Assembly: GCA_003696125.1 (NCBI GenBank)
Contig: RFHZ01000259.1
Coordinates: 1 to 5,383 of the forward strand
Reading direction: 5' to 3'
DNA length: 5,383 nucleotides
Source: Nitrospinota bacterium
GTDB lineage: Bacteria > Tectomicrobia > Entotheonellia > J063
This document shows, piece after piece, positions 139 through 5,383 of the stretch. The position numbers and the translations under genes were made by a program. A model generated the notes under the pieces. The model had not been told where the DNA came from and made no database searches. It was given only the letters and a program-made list of their open reading frames with translations. The number at the start of each line of letters is the position of its first letter. The first letter of the stretch is position 1.

Positions 139-170
139 ATATGTTTATATGTGCTTACATGCATATAATA
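139..170 (-). promoter_or_regulatory. Probable ArsR operator at the fmdE-like promoter
   Basis: This AT-rich 32-bp element, read on the minus strand, matches 766-797 on the plus strand at 26 of 32 positions, including the unbroken core TGCATGTAA. It contains a perfect inverted repeat TTATATG (145-151), 10 nt, CATATAA (162-168), the sort of dyad that dimeric ArsR/SmtB repressors bind. It overlaps the -10 box and the expected transcription start, a position suited to repression. Binding by the ArsR encoded at 846-1259 is inferred from the shared element in front of arsR itself. Confidence 0.6.
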
Positions 171-193
171 GGGTAAAATGGCGACGGTGACAA
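165..193 (-). promoter_or_regulatory. Sigma-70-type promoter of the fmdE-like gene
   Basis: On the minus strand a -35 box TTGTCA (193-188) is separated by exactly 17 nt from a -10 box TATTAT (170-165). Transcription should start near 158, giving a leader of about 55 nt before the ATG at 104. The geometry is the same as that of the arsR promoter on the other side of the spacer. The boxes are seen in the sequence; activity is inferred. Confidence 0.7.
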
Positions 194-211
194 GTCCCTA
201 CGCGTATTTTG

Positions 212-720
212 TTCAACAGGTCCCCTCCCTTCTGAGAGAAATCTGGACAGAACAGTAATCCAAGGCACTCAGGTCTCCTCCACTTCCCCAGACCGTGGGG
301 ACACCCCACGACCCCTGGCGGGCGGGACTCCACCTCGCTACAAACTTCCTTCCCACTGATGGAACTCTGTGGTGATCACCCCGTGGGTCACCCGTCGGAG
401 AGCTGGTGGATGATGGCCGAGGACAGCAGTCTCACCGTCATGACGATCACCCTGCATACACAGAATTTACTTCCTTCGCAAGACCGGTGTCAGGGATTGG
501 ATCTGACGGTATAGCCAAACCCTGAACCGTCTGGTGGAGCAACCCTCCGTCACGTTGCAGGCAACGATGACCGCTTGGGGATTGTGTGCGGTGTCTGAGA
601 TGGACGGCCGGACTGGGAAGATCTGGAAGCCAACCTGTAGATGCACACGTGAGCGGTCTATGAGATCGAGGTGACTGGGGTACATGTGGATAGCACGACG
701 ACATATAGATCCCTTTTTGG
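212..720. other. Unassigned spacer between the two divergent promoters
   Basis: About 500 bp lie between the two outward-facing promoter blocks. I find no reading frame with a ribosome binding site and a recognisable protein, no tRNA or rRNA, no transposase remnant and no CRISPR repeats. Visible structure is limited to a strong hairpin (294-310) and two perfect 10-bp palindromes, GGTGATCACC (371-380) and CGTCATGACG (436-445). Each palindrome lies close to a GATCACCC word. The length is unusual for a divergent bacterial regulatory region, so a decayed gene, a small RNA or an inserted fragment are all possible. Confidence 0.5.
294..310. repeat. GC-rich hairpin, perfect 7-bp stem with 3-nt loop
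   Basis: CGTGGGG (294-300), loop ACA, CCCCACG (304-310) form a perfect inverted repeat. No run of T follows on either strand, so it does not look like a standard intrinsic terminator. It lies upstream of the fmdE-like promoter, outside the expected transcripts of both flanking genes. Confidence 0.5.
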
Positions 721-797
721 CAAAATTCTCTCCACAGGACTTGACCCCGGCGCTTTTTTCTCCTATATTGTGTGCATGTAATCGCATATATGCATAT
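721..797 (+). repeat. Right copy of the inverted promoter-operator block
   Basis: This is the plus-strand partner of 139-211. It holds CAAAAT (721-726), GGACTTG (737-743), the -35 and -10 boxes and the 32-bp operator-like element in the same order as the left copy. Confidence 0.55.
741..769 (+). promoter_or_regulatory. Sigma-70-type promoter of the ars operon
   Basis: A -35 box TTGACC (741-746) and a -10 box TATATT (764-769) are separated by 17 nt, the optimum for sigma-70. The start point should fall near 776, inside the operator-like element, leaving a leader of about 70 nt before arsR. No other promoter is evident further down, so this one probably drives all six plus-strand genes. Confidence 0.75.
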
Positions 798-845: not shown

Positions 846-1259
846 ATGGACACCTTTGTGACCCTCTTGAAGGCCTTGGCCGATAAGACCCGGCTCCGTA
901 TCCTCTGGGTCCTGAGCCAGGCCGGTACCGAGCTGTGTGTCTGTGAAATCATGGATGCCTTGAACGAAACACAATACAACGTCTCCCGCCATCTCAAGAT
1001 CCTCAAGACGGCGGGCTGGGTGCGGGAACGAAAGGAGGCCCGCTGGGTCTTCTATGCCCTGACCACTCCTGCCCATCCCTTCCAGGCATGCCTCCAGCAG
1101 GCGATTCTTGCCCTGCCCGAAGAGCTGCTTCGCCTGGATAAGGCCCGCCTGGAGAAACGCCTGGCCCTCCGGGAAGATGGCAGGTGCACCGTAGGAGTCG
1201 ATAGCGAAGCGTGGCGAAGTATCGTCAGGGAACTGACCATCATAGGAGAGAGGGAATGA
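846..1259 (+). CDS. arsR: ArsR-family arsenite-responsive repressor
   Basis: This 137-residue protein is a winged-helix ArsR/SmtB repressor that releases operator DNA on binding As(III) or Sb(III). The N-terminal part has the family pattern LKALADKTRLRILWVL (8-23). The metal site is ELCVCEI at 29-35, with Cys31 and Cys33 matching the paired cysteines of the classical R773-type ArsR; the third cysteine of that type (CxCxxC) is replaced by Met36. Cys82 and Cys114 lie further on. The recognition helix is TQYNVSRHLKILKTAG (42-57), followed by the wing containing RKEARWVFY (62-70). Length is slightly above the usual 100-120 because of a C-terminal extension. The start at 846 is chosen for its strong ribosome binding site; the frame is open back to 684, but that part overlaps the promoter. 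It is first in the operon, and its TGA overlaps the next ATG. Confidence 0.93.
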   Translation: MDTFVTLLKALADKTRLRILWVLSQAGTELCVCEIMDALNETQYNVSRHLKILKTAGWVRERKEARWVFYALTTPAHPFQACLQQAILALPEELLRLDKARLEKRLALREDGRCTVGVDSEAWRSIVRELTIIGERE

Positions 1260-2254
1260 ATCCCCCAACCCAGCCTCACCTTTCCATACGAGACGAAAGC
1301 AAACCGTTACTCCTCATTGCGGCTATTCTGATCGGTATCCTGCTCAACCGGCTGGCAGGTGGCGTGATGCGTGAGCTTTATGGTCTGGTGAATATCGGGC
1401 TGTTTCTCGTCATCTTCGCCATCATGGCCTTTGTAGAAATAAAAGAGGTCGGCCAGGCTTTGGCTAAAGTGAAGCCGACAGCCTTGGCCTTGCTCACCAA
1501 CTTTCTCTTTACCCCGCTCTTTGCCTGGTTTTTGGGCTGGCTCTTCCTGCGCCACTATCCCGACTTCTGGGCTGGTGTGATTCTCTACAAGCTGACCCCC
1601 TGTATCGGCTGGTACCTCATCTTTATCGACCTGGCCGAGGGGGATGTCCCCTGGGGAGTGGCGCTGTTACCCTGGAATCTGGTGTTACAGATTCTCCTCC
1701 TGCCCGTGTATATGTGGTTGCTGGTAGGGAAAGTCGTGCCCATAGAGCCCCTGACCTTGATCAGGAGTGTGGGGTTATTCCTCTTCCTGCCCTTTGTGAC
1801 CGGATATCTCACCCGGCTGCTCCTGCTTCGCTGGCGGGGACGAGAGTGGACCTATGGCCCATTTAAACAGGTGATGGGTGAAGTGAAACTGTGGGCATTG
1901 GTCCTGGTCGTGATCGGGATCTTTGCCTCGCAGGAGGTCCTGGAGGTAAGCGATTTGGGCCGTATAGGACTGATCATCCTGGTCATCGCGCTCTTTTTTA
2001 TCAGTTTATTCCTGATCGGCCTGGCCGTAGGAAGAATCTTCCTCCTAGACTATGCGGAGACCACCACCCTGGTCTTTACGACCACGGCGCGCAACTCCGA
2101 GGCGGTGGTTGGGGTCGCGGCAACCGCCTTCCCTGGTCATCCGCTGGTGTTGTTCGCCATATTGATCGGTCCCATAGTAGAACTCCCGGTACTGATCCTG
2201 CTCAGCCGGATCATGCTGGCGTTACGCACACGGTGGCAATGGAAAGTCGTGTAA
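1256..2254 (+). CDS. ACR3/BASS-family arsenite permease, divergent copy
   Basis: This 332-residue polytopic inner-membrane protein has about ten hydrophobic segments from residue 17 to 324 and is likely an As(III)/Sb(III) exporter of the bile acid/arsenite (BART) superfamily. Family marks are KLTPCIGW (112-119), where Cys116 corresponds to the essential cysteine of Acr3 transmembrane segment 4; TTARNSE (276-282), in the helix-break region; and IGPIVELPV (304-312), whose Glu309 matches the conserved acidic residue of a late transmembrane segment. It shares RWRGRE (192-197) and LPVY (149-152) with similar words in the next permease, so the two are paralogues, but it lacks the YP motif after the second segment that the other one has. 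The start at 1256 has AGGAG at 1244-1248 and overlaps the arsR stop as ATGA, indicating translational coupling. A different but related substrate is possible. Confidence 0.82.
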   Translation: MNPPTQPHLSIRDESKPLLLIAAILIGILLNRLAGGVMRELYGLVNIGLFLVIFAIMAFVEIKEVGQALAKVKPTALALLTNFLFTPLFAWFLGWLFLRHYPDFWAGVILYKLTPCIGWYLIFIDLAEGDVPWGVALLPWNLVLQILLLPVYMWLLVGKVVPIEPLTLIRSVGLFLFLPFVTGYLTRLLLLRWRGREWTYGPFKQVMGEVKLWALVLVVIGIFASQEVLEVSDLGRIGLIILVIALFFISLFLIGLAVGRIFLLDYAETTTLVFTTTARNSEAVVGVAATAFPGHPLVLFAILIGPIVELPVLILLSRIMLALRTRWQWKVV

Positions 2255-2288
2255 ATATATGGAGTGAACTTCTTTAGGAGGGAACAGC

Positions 2289-3398
2289 ATGCGCACCTAT
2301 CTCGAAAAGTTGCAGAACTTCCGGCTCTTACCCGTCTTTGTCGTGGTGAGTATGGCCATCGGTATCCTGATTGGAAAGGGGTATGGCATCTCCAACTTCC
2401 AGTTGACCCCACCCATCGACGCCCTGAAGGCGATCTTTGCTGGGACCTATCAATTTACCCTGCCCAACAGTCTCGCCCTGGGTGTGGTCATCGGGCTCTT
2501 CCTCATGATCTACCCGGCCATGACCAACGTGAAGATCGAAGACCTGGGAAGAGCGACCCGATCCCCCAAGCAGTTGCTCATCGTCCTCTTCTTCAACTAC
2601 GCCATCGCCCCCTTTTTTATGTTGCTCCTGGCCAAAATCTTTCTGGCCGGAGAGCGTGACCTGTACACCGGCCTGGTGCTCTACGGGCTGGCTCCCTGTA
2701 TCGCCATGGTCATCGTGTTCACCTTCCTGTCCTTCGGGAACAATGCGCTGGCCATCGTGCTGGTGGCCATCAACTCCATTGCCCAGATGCTCCTGATCCC
2801 GGTATACGCCAAGCTGCTGCTGGGCAATATCGCCTTCGACGTCTGGGTGGTAGGGGAGAGTGTGCTCCTCTACCTGGGTGTGCCGCTCATCGCCGGGTTT
2901 TTGACGCGACGCATCGCCGTGCGCTGGCGAGGAGAAGAGGGACTCAAACAGGTCAAAGTCTACCTGGACTCCCTCTCCATCCTCGGCCTCCTCTTCACCC
3001 TGGTGGTCATGTTCGCCTTAAAAGGGGATCTGATCCTGGAAAAACCGGTGATCATCCTCCAGATGGCCATTCCGATGACCCTCTTCTTCTGGATCATGTT
3101 TGGGGTTGTGTACCTGACCGGCTGGAGCCTGGGACTGAACTACCAGGATGCGGTGGCAGTGGCCTTTAACTCCACCGGACGGGATTTTGAGATCGCCATC
3201 GCCATCGCCATCACCGCCTTTAATCCGACCGTGGCCCTGGCCACCGTGGTGGGACCGCTGATCGAGGTGCCGGTGATGCTGGTGTTGGTCTGGGCGGCCC
3301 GGACCTCACGTGCCTGGCTCTTCCAGGAAGAGGCCGGCCTGGCACCGGCAGCAGAGACGGCGCTCAACCCGCATTCCGGCTCCAACCCGGAACATTAA
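2289..3398 (+). CDS. acr3: ACR3-type arsenite efflux permease
   Basis: This 369-residue protein has about ten transmembrane segments and closely follows the Acr3 pattern. It has MIYPAMTNVKIEDL (73-86), LYGLAPCIAMVIVF (131-144) with the functionally essential Cys137, FNSTGRDFEIAIAIAI (293-308) and VVGPLIEVPVMLVLV (320-334) with conserved Glu326. Acr3 exports arsenite, and in some members antimonite, out of the cytoplasm, driven by the membrane potential or proton gradient and possibly assisted by ArsA. The soluble C-terminal tail after residue 340 is Ala/Pro/Ser rich and not conserved in the family as I know it. AGGAGGG at 2276-2282 lies 6 nt before the ATG. It follows the first permease by 34 nt and precedes the Usp gene by 14 nt, so it is co-transcribed with both. 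Confidence 0.9.
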   Translation: MRTYLEKLQNFRLLPVFVVVSMAIGILIGKGYGISNFQLTPPIDALKAIFAGTYQFTLPNSLALGVVIGLFLMIYPAMTNVKIEDLGRATRSPKQLLIVLFFNYAIAPFFMLLLAKIFLAGERDLYTGLVLYGLAPCIAMVIVFTFLSFGNNALAIVLVAINSIAQMLLIPVYAKLLLGNIAFDVWVVGESVLLYLGVPLIAGFLTRRIAVRWRGEEGLKQVKVYLDSLSILGLLFTLVVMFALKGDLILEKPVIILQMAIPMTLFFWIMFGVVYLTGWSLGLNYQDAVAVAFNSTGRDFEIAIAIAITAFNPTVALATVVGPLIEVPVMLVLVWAARTSRAWLFQEEAGLAPAAETALNPHSGSNPEH

Positions 3399-3412: not shown

Positions 3413-4312
3413 ATGTTTTCACGTATCCTCTTTCCCACCGACTTCTCCCGGCATGCGACCAAGGTGCTGGAGTGCCTCCCCGCCTTAAAAAATGCTGGAC
3501 TGGAGGAAGTGGTCTTGCTGCATGTGATCAACCCGATAAAAGCGGCACGCTGGATCAGCGTGGATGAAAGTGTCATCGCCAGGCTTAAGAGAGAAGCGCA
3601 AAGCCAGATGGAGGCGATCATTGCCCAGATCTGCTCTGCCCATGGTCTTAGCGGCAGGTACAGGATCGCCGTGGGCGTGACCTATCAGGAAATCGTGCGC
3701 GTTGCCACAGAAGAACAGGTATCACTTATCATCATGGGCTCGCATGGACGGGGCTTTGTCAGGGGAGCGGTGCTGGGAAGTGTGACCCAGAACGTCTTGC
3801 GCCATACCCGCACCCCGCTCCTGATCGAGAAGTTTCGGTTTATCGAACAACAGGGGAAAGAGGTCTGCGATTTCGTCTGTCAGGGGATGTTTCGCAAGAT
3901 CCTCTTTCCCACCGACTTCTCCGACTGTGCCCTCTCTGCGCTGCAGATGGTCAAACAGCTCCGCACCTGTGGCGCAGAAGAAGTGGTGCTGGTCCACATT
4001 CAGGATACCAGGAGACTCTTGCCTCCCGTGCTCTCCCAAAGGGAGGAACTGCAGAAGCAGGATCAGGAGAGGTTAGAGGAGATAAAAGGGCAACTCCACT
4101 TTCTCGGGTACAGGGTAAAGAGCATATTGCGGGAAGGGATTCCCTTTGTAGAGATCAATCGTATTGCGGAAGAGGAAGATGTCTGCATGATCGTGCTGGG
4201 CTCGCATGGCAAGAGTGCGATCAAAGAAGCGCTCATCGGGAGTGTCAGTGAAGCCATTGCCCGCGAGCATATCCGGCCGGTGCTGGTCATTCCGAGAAAT
4301 TGGGAAGGATAA
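3413..4312 (+). CDS. Tandem-domain universal stress protein (UspA family)
   Basis: This 299-residue protein contains two complete Usp domains joined head to tail. Domain 1 (about 1-143) opens with SRILFPTDFS and ends with GSHGRGFVRGAVLGS (109-123). Domain 2 (about 159-297) opens with RKILFPTDFS (161-170) and ends with GSHGKSAIKEALIGS (263-277). Both closing motifs fit the ATP-binding pattern G-2x-G-9x-G-S, so both domains should bind ATP and the protein could form an intramolecular Usp dimer. It is soluble and cytoplasmic, with no membrane segment or signal peptide. The linker carries CDFVC (Cys152 and Cys156), a possible thiol pair. GGAGG at 3403-3407 lies 5 nt before the start. Usp proteins act in stress survival, and the specific role here is unknown. 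Its position between acr3 and arsD implies arsenic-induced expression. Confidence 0.92.
   Translation: MFSRILFPTDFSRHATKVLECLPALKNAGLEEVVLLHVINPIKAARWISVDESVIARLKREAQSQMEAIIAQICSAHGLSGRYRIAVGVTYQEIVRVATEEQVSLIIMGSHGRGFVRGAVLGSVTQNVLRHTRTPLLIEKFRFIEQQGKEVCDFVCQGMFRKILFPTDFSDCALSALQMVKQLRTCGAEEVVLVHIQDTRRLLPPVLSQREELQKQDQERLEEIKGQLHFLGYRVKSILREGIPFVEINRIAEEEDVCMIVLGSHGKSAIKEALIGSVSEAIAREHIRPVLVIPRNWEG
3425..3448 (+). repeat. 24-bp perfect direct repeat, copy 1 (within usp domain 1)
   Basis: These 24 bases, encoding the ILFPTDFS stretch, recur without mismatch at 3899-3922, 474 bp downstream, in the same frame of the second Usp domain. Identity covers wobble positions too, while the rest of the two domains has diverged strongly. 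Confidence 0.85.
3899..3922 (+). repeat. 24-bp perfect direct repeat, copy 2 (within usp domain 2)
   Basis: This is an exact copy of 3425-3448 at the start of the second Usp domain. A shorter shared word, GGGCTCGCATGG, encodes the ATP-loop GSHG in each domain. Confidence 0.85.
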
Positions 4313-4333
4313 ACAGGGGAAAAACCTCATGAA

Positions 4334-4338
4334 AGGAG
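4334..4338 (+). promoter_or_regulatory. Ribosome binding site that fixes the arsD start
   Basis: AGGAG lies 5 nt before the ATG at 4344. The in-frame ATG at 4329 lies upstream of this site and overlaps it in its coding sequence, so 4344 is preferred. Confidence 0.75.
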
Positions 4339-4343
4339 AAGCG

Positions 4344-4691
4344 ATGCCGACATTTGCGCAACAACCAGAAGCCCAGAAATCCCCAGCTCGCGTCGAAATC
4401 TTTGATCCACCGCTCTGTTGTCCCACAGGGCTCTGTGGACCTACCATTGATCCGATCCTGCTGGATGTGCATGAGATGGTGTTAAAACTGCAGGCACAAG
4501 GGATTCAGGTGCAACGATACCAGCTCAGTGCCCAACCGCAGGCCTTCATGGCCAATGCCCAGGTGTTTCAGTTGATACGGGAACGCCAACTGACCGTGTT
4601 GCCGATCACGGTCGTGAACGGACGGATAGTGAAAACCGGTGCTTATCCTACCCTGGATGAGATCCAGAAGGCGTTGAAGGAGGAACAATGA
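4344..4691 (+). CDS. arsD: ArsD arsenic metallochaperone
   Basis: This 115-residue thioredoxin-fold protein binds cytosolic As(III) or Sb(III) and transfers it to ArsA, raising the affinity of the pump for arsenite; some ArsD proteins are also weak repressors. The diagnostic motif VEIFDPPLCCPTGLCG occupies residues 17-32, with Cys25, Cys26 and Cys31 matching the essential Cys12, Cys13 and Cys18 of R773 ArsD. The motif begins about 13 residues later than in R773 because of a polar N-terminal extension. The protein ends in LKEEQ and lacks the C-terminal vicinal cysteine pairs found in R773 ArsD, which are known to be dispensable. It follows the Usp gene by 31 nt, and its TGA overlaps the arsA start as ATGA, so the chaperone and its partner are translationally coupled. 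Confidence 0.93.
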   Translation: MPTFAQQPEAQKSPARVEIFDPPLCCPTGLCGPTIDPILLDVHEMVLKLQAQGIQVQRYQLSAQPQAFMANAQVFQLIRERQLTVLPITVVNGRIVKTGAYPTLDEIQKALKEEQ

Positions 4692-5383
4692 TTCCTTCGT
4701 TTATCTTCTTCTCCGGCAAGGGTGGTGTAGGCAAGACCAGTATGGCCTGTGCCACGGCTGTGTACCATGCGGATCAGGGACATCAGACCCTCATTGTCAC
4801 CACGGACCCGGCCTCGAATCTGGCCGACGTCTTTGAGCAACCTATTGGCCATCAGATCACCCCGATCAGAGATGTCCCCAACCTGTACGCCATGGAGATC
4901 GACCCTGATCAGGCCACCCAGGAATACAAGGAGCGAGCCCTGTCCCCGCTACGAGCCATCTTTCCGGCCGAGATCGTACGCGTAATGGAGGAACAGCTCG
5001 ATTCCCCCTGTACAGCAGAGATGGCTGCCTTCGACCGCTTTACCGATTTCATGGAGACTACGGACTATGAGGTGGTCATCTTTGATACCGCTCCCACCGG
5101 TCACACCTTGCGCCTGCTGGAGTTACCGGTAGAGTGGAGTCAATATATCGAGGAGGCGGCAAAAGGTTCGGGCCAGACCTGCATGGGACCGGTGACGACC
5201 ATCCAGGCTGCTCAGGCCAAGTACGAGCGGGCCATTACCCTCATGCGGGATCCAACGCGCACGCAATTCATCTTTGTTACCCAACCAGAAGCGACCGCCA
5301 TCGCGGAAACGATGCGAGCCGCAAACGAGCTGGCACAGCTCGGCATGCAAACGCAGCAACTCATCGTCAACGGCATCATCCCC
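4688..5383 (+). CDS. arsA: ArsA arsenite-stimulated ATPase, N-terminal part (cut by window edge)
   Basis: The frame is open from 4688 to the window end (232 codons) and encodes a GET3/ArsA-type deviant-Walker ATPase. It shows the P-loop SGKGGVGKTS (9-18), switch I DPASNLAD (40-47), the ArsA signature DTAPTGHTLRLL (133-144), FVTQPEAT (196-203) and VNGIIP (227-232). Cys108 in SPCTAEMAAFDRF and Cys165 in TCMGP match metal-site cysteines Cys113 and Cys172 of R773 ArsA, so this is an arsenite ATPase rather than a tail-anchored-protein targeting factor. It hydrolyses ATP to assist As(III)/Sb(III) efflux at the inner membrane, receiving the metalloid from ArsD. GGAGG at 4679-4683 lies 4 nt before the ATG. 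Whether it has one nucleotide-binding half or two (R773 has about 583 residues) cannot be told because the gene is truncated by the window. Confidence 0.95.
   Translation, partial: MIPSFIFFSGKGGVGKTSMACATAVYHADQGHQTLIVTTDPASNLADVFEQPIGHQITPIRDVPNLYAMEIDPDQATQEYKERALSPLRAIFPAEIVRVMEEQLDSPCTAEMAAFDRFTDFMETTDYEVVIFDTAPTGHTLRLLELPVEWSQYIEEAAKGSGQTCMGPVTTIQAAQAKYERAITLMRDPTRTQFIFVTQPEATAIAETMRAANELAQLGMQTQQLIVNGIIP

Follow-up and report, generated by a model that had tools for sequence, protein, structure and literature searches.

A predicted ArsR-type operator probably places an fmdE-like gene under ArsR control in a Nitrospinota bacterium

The window, the whole stretch of DNA analysed here, is the entire contig C576 (5,383 bases) of an assembly comprising 990 contigs and 4,182,615 bases, with a completeness of 94.8% and an estimated contamination of 7.98%. 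The plus strand carries an ars operon in the order arsR-acr3-acr3-usp-arsD-arsA. The first gene, arsR (846–1259), encodes an ArsR/SmtB metalloregulator and its stop codon is overlapped by the gene for a diverged Acr3-like transporter of the SBF family (1256–2254, SBF E = 3.6e-28). There follow a likely acr3 arsenite efflux transporter gene (2289–3398), a double universal stress protein (Usp) gene (3413–4312, with Usp matched in two stretches, 1.6e-52), the metallochaperone gene arsD (4329–4691, NF033727 at 111.5 bits, above the cut-off of 90) and the 5′ part of the ATPase gene arsA (4688–5383, ArsA_ATPase 5.4e-70), which continues past the contig. The Acr3/SBF-family transporters form a tandem pair (1256–3398). 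The first is far from the ACR3 model, with a TIGR00832 score of 134 bits as opposed to 247 bits for the second and a cut-off of 282.8, and it may have a different substrate. The position of the double Usp gene, between acr3 and arsD within the operon, is also noted. An Rfam search gave no match and plasmid DNA gave no nucleotide matches to the window.

On the minus strand, the contig end cuts an fmdE-like gene after its N-terminal 34 codons (104–3). The frame is real and includes an FHGHKCP motif. The fragment matches Pfam FmdE (PF02663) with an E-value of 2.3e-4 and 21.7 bits (cut-off 22.9) over profile positions 1–21 only, and full-length FmdE relatives in other genomes score above the Pfam cut-off. 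A search with the protein of a relative did not find the remainder of the gene elsewhere in the assembly. Identity to the FmdE proteins of six loci (L082, L115, L051, L050, L109 and L110) is 22–24 of the 34 residues; the fragment appears closest to a set of FmdE forms in which linkage to ars genes and to arsR is represented, though 34 residues are too short for firm placement.

Three PF02663 structures are available (2gvi, 3d00 and 2glz). According to PMC2954224, the HGHxC motif provides the His, His and Cys ligands of Zn/Ni in two of them, and most PF02663 genes adjoin genes for metal-ion transporters. The FHGHKCP of the window fragment corresponds to the ligands His15, His17 and Cys19 described there. 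A fourth ligand, a cysteine, and a C-terminal zinc finger are present in FmdE relatives; the window gene is cut before them. Structures of the family exist and a settled function does not, in keeping with its earlier description as largely uncharacterised.

Between the two transcription units lies an inverted repeat, the arms of which (139–170 and 766–797) are 32 nucleotides long, complementary at 26 of 32 positions (81%) and separated by 595 nucleotides. When the upstream regions were shuffled (n = 200) the best pairing was 21/32 and the mean 17.1. Two sigma-70-like promoters face outward, TTGTCA-17-TATTAT on the minus strand (193–165) for fmdE and TTGACC-17-TATATT on the plus strand (741–769) for arsR. 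Both are predicted from consensus match only, each at 10 of 12 positions, and the hexamers alone are weak evidence because the scan found four such sites where 2.8 are expected. Each 32-nucleotide element overlaps the −10 box of its own promoter, beginning at base 1 of the −10 on the fmdE side and at base 3 on the arsR side, a register shift of two nucleotides. The words CAAAAT and GGACTTG are common to both promoter blocks. GGACTTG is in register with the −35 on both sides, and CAAAAT lies eight nucleotides upstream of it on one side and ten on the other. The first-pass annotation had described these outward promoters of equal spacing, the matching elements over the −10/start regions and the shared flanking words; all were recovered, with the offsets given above. 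Over the stretch from GGACTTG to the −10, 23 of 31 positions agree between the promoters. This likeness extends beyond the element to the −35, therefore the whole promoter blocks look paralogous and probably share an origin.

Within each element is an imperfect dyad with an ATATGC-N8-GCATAT-like core, conserved upstream of arsR homologues and positioned over the −10 region. The core reads ATATGC-N8-ACATAT (147–166, minus strand) at fmdE and GTGTGC-N8-GCATAT (770–789) at arsR, where an extra half-site reaches to 797. Elements of the same type occur over the own promoters of foreign arsR genes, for example ATATGC-N8-GCATAC in locus L004 and ATATGC-N8-GCATAT in locus L007. A core pattern, RTGCNNNNNNNNRCATATANRCATAT, was derived from the two window sites and used to scan the assembly with up to two mismatches allowed. 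In 4,182,615 bases there are exactly two sites, the window elements themselves, each with no mismatch; there is no third, and the reversed pattern used as a control has none in the assembly.

A matrix was built from 12 foreign arsR promoters. It scores the fmdE site at 30.1 bits and the arsR site at 34.7 bits, far above the rest of the window, and the fmdE site equals or exceeds many real arsR operators. Shuffling the fmdE upstream region 5,000 times gave at most 11.7 bits. Over 1.75 million positions of other DNA, matches above 25 bits outside the training set fall in three loci; in L022 and L024 they adjoin arsR starts, and in L002 the site is within an ars cluster, about 4 kb ahead of arsR. 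Since the training sites had been picked by eye, a sliding test was also run, in which one window element was compared along 20 arsR-containing loci of other organisms with no hand-picked foreign site. When the fmdE element was the sole query, 14 of the 20 loci had their overall best match in the 130 bp preceding arsR (binomial p about 2e-14 if the chance expectation is 5%); the arsR element places it there in 15 of 20. For L002 the best match to the fmdE element (26/32) is again some 4 kb ahead of arsR, still inside the ars cluster. The ArsR proteins of loci with the element beside arsR are about 37–54% identical to that of the window. On these comparisons the paired element is an ArsR-type operator, as predicted from sequence.

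The candidate regulator, window ArsR, has a winged helix-turn-helix (HTH_5 E = 4e-13; NF033788 at 89.8 bits against a cut-off of 55; HTH_metalloreg 7.4e-26, above cut-off), in the HTH region of which an ELCVCE metal-binding box aligns to ELCVCD of a PDB homologue. Homologues of 43–56% identity were found, and no other protein of the assembly resembles it at E ≤ 1e-3. By analogy with the family (PMC5658604) we infer that this ArsR binds both operators and that As(III) releases it.

The gene neighbourhoods of FmdE relatives were compared in a sample of 386 genomes, 25 of which have a match to an FmdE-subfamily model; one copy per genome was examined, and the counts are lower bounds as many contigs are short. 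A TauE/SafE permease gene is within 3 kb of the FmdE relative in at least 17 of the 25, an arsR-family gene within 3 kb in at least eight, and acr3 and arsC are both within 10 kb in at least five. With backgrounds that are assumed, not counted, co-location has a p-value of 2e-8 to 5e-7 for arsR (background 2–3%) and 1e-4 to 3e-3 for ACR3 (2–4%), so that, given such backgrounds, both counts would be unlikely by chance. The simplest arrangement, arsR-fmdE-tauE, occurs in genomes G025, G054 and G158, with arsR-permease-fmdE-tauE in G275. More extensive clusters are arsR-permease-fmdE-tauE-arsE-arsR-arsC-arsD-arsA-acr3 (G335), arsR-arsM-permease-tauE-fmdE-CDF-arsE-...-arsC-acr3 (G126) and, in the Zixibacteriota record L007, arsR-acr3-arsC-arsR-permease-ABC-ABC-arsE-fmdE-tauE, with a predicted operator upstream of the first arsR. 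In G024, fmdE-tauE-porin-fmdE is about 7 kb from acr3-arsC-arsA-arsD-arsR, and on a plasmid of Citrobacter amalonaticus Y19 fmdE is near tauE, acr3, arsC and arsA. Some FmdE relatives, alone or with TauE, have no ars genes nearby, so FmdE probably has settings other than arsenic as well.

A search for the motif beside fmdE-like genes of other genomes, which the first-pass annotation had proposed as a check, gave weak similarity to the ATATGC-type operator upstream of fmdE in G025 and, in L007, close to its second arsR; the operator is absent at fmdE of the Citrobacter plasmid, and G024 and G046 have a different palindrome. ArsRs linked to FmdE in other genomes often belong to other subtypes and have different palindromes upstream. 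In the fmdE operons of G024 and G046 (L051:6119–6400 and L081, upstream of 10538) the palindrome TATATCACTATATCGTGATATA precedes the genes near a TTGACA-like −35, and is probably the operator of another repressor. Some FmdE-TauE cassettes include the gene for an outer-membrane porin of the Alginate_exp or Porin_O_P family (L050:5295–6674, L051:4341–5426), an arrangement suggesting transport across both membranes.

What do these observations imply for regulation of the window? The reading we consider likely, and hold with some confidence, is that window ArsR represses the promoters of both the arsR operon and fmdE and that arsenite or antimonite releases both. An ArsR dimer would bind the two near-identical operators, one at the promoter of arsR-acr3-acr3-usp-arsD-arsA and the other at the promoter that reads outward into the fmdE-like gene, covering the −10/start region at each and so blocking RNA polymerase. 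Binding of arsenite (or antimonite) to the cysteine pair of ELCVCE would then release ArsR and both units would be switched on. That the fmdE-like gene is under ArsR control had been put forward from the sequence of the locus. The proposal gains support from conservation of the element at the promoters of distantly homologous arsR genes, from the operator-like score of the fmdE copy, from the restriction of the pattern to two sites in the assembly and from the recurrence of FmdE relatives beside arsR and within ars clusters. Weighing against it are the FmdE relatives with no ars gene nearby, the other subtypes and palindromes among linked ArsRs, the truncation of fmdE at the contig end, and the fragmentation and contamination of the assembly. 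The fmdE-like gene is then probably an unrecognised member of the bacterial arsenic response.

The arrangement follows autoregulated ars operons of the ArsR/SmtB type in the HTH_5 regulator, the CVC metal site and the imperfect A+T-rich dyad over its own −10/start, placed as in PMC5658604. It differs from them in the second, near-identical predicted operator at a divergent gene outside the known ars genes. TtSmtB of Thermus thermophilus HB27 gives footprints on a non-self target promoter and also binds its own (PMC5658604), and we propose that window ArsR behaves alike. The sites and targets of TtSmtB are different, however, and the ars genes there are dispersed, whereas the window has an fmdE-like gene as the proposed second target and a single gap of 600 bp flanked by the two operators. 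One ArsR acting on two promoters is an ordinary mechanism; what appears new lies in the target gene and in the repeated association of FmdE-TauE/SafE with ars clusters.

Three alternatives deserve consideration. The fmdE operator might be served mainly by a different repressor of the ArsR family, perhaps one whose gene accompanies fmdE past the contig end, with cross-talk from window ArsR only minor. FmdE-TauE cassettes often include an arsR-family gene of their own and the fmdE side does end at the contig edge. Against this, the elements match at 26 of 32 positions, the promoters are also alike around the −35, window ArsR is the sole match to itself in the assembly at E ≤ 1e-3 and the pattern has only the two sites, and we regard this alternative as improbable. 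Less probable still, and in our judgement very unlikely, is that the fmdE copy arose by duplication of a promoter fragment and has no present regulatory role, or that it is a chance A+T-rich similarity. The likeness that reaches past the operator to the −35 would fit a duplication and A+T-rich promoters do look alike, but the shuffles and the genome scan exclude chance and the fmdE site scores as high as, or higher than, many real arsR operators. The inverted layout about 600 bp apart and a faint transposase trace in the spacer might indicate a decayed insertion sequence, with the elements as its terminal inverted repeats. This is rejected as barely credible since arsR promoters of many unrelated genomes carry the same element, which overlaps predicted −10 boxes in the window and has no more copies in the assembly. 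The trace itself is in plus-strand frames at 480–715, where residues ...VTGVHVDSTTTYRSLF give a match, only suggestive, to an IS1634-type transposase (NF033559 E = 0.16, 11 bits); Pfam, and tblastn against plasmids, found no transposase there.

Control of fmdE by window ArsR, if correct, gives the FmdE family a concrete and testable setting in metalloid stress, marked by an ArsR-type operator and by cassettes beside arsR, arsM, arsE, arsC and acr3, and extends the ars regulon by a new candidate component. The accessible part of PMC2954224 links PF02663 proteins to no arsenic function, whereas the window gene carries a predicted ArsR-type operator. In the open-licence literature we found no paper tying FmdE to arsenic resistance or ArsR, although such absence is not proof of novelty. 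A transcriptome study of the archaeon Acidiplasma (PMC12524180) reports that formylmethanofuran dehydrogenase subunit E is down by a factor above 14 with sulfur and with pyrite as well as with arsenopyrite, a response that is not arsenic-specific. A broader interpretation would make FmdE-TauE/SafE a widespread accessory module for arsenic resistance that has gone unrecognised, with ArsR-family repressors in control and FmdE handling metalloids or thiols alongside the permease as its partner; it is tentative and we lean somewhat against it. That FmdE, a predicted metal-binding protein, supplies the TauE/SafE permease with As(III)-, sulfur- or thiol-bound species for export is speculative, a guess.

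In two related ars clusters, elements resembling the operator occur at places other than the start of arsR, at L002:1950 and L005:8831. Genes near these elements, named by eye, include those for a YlbF-like protein, a flavoprotein and, in L002, MoeA, hinting at further accessory members of the regulon.
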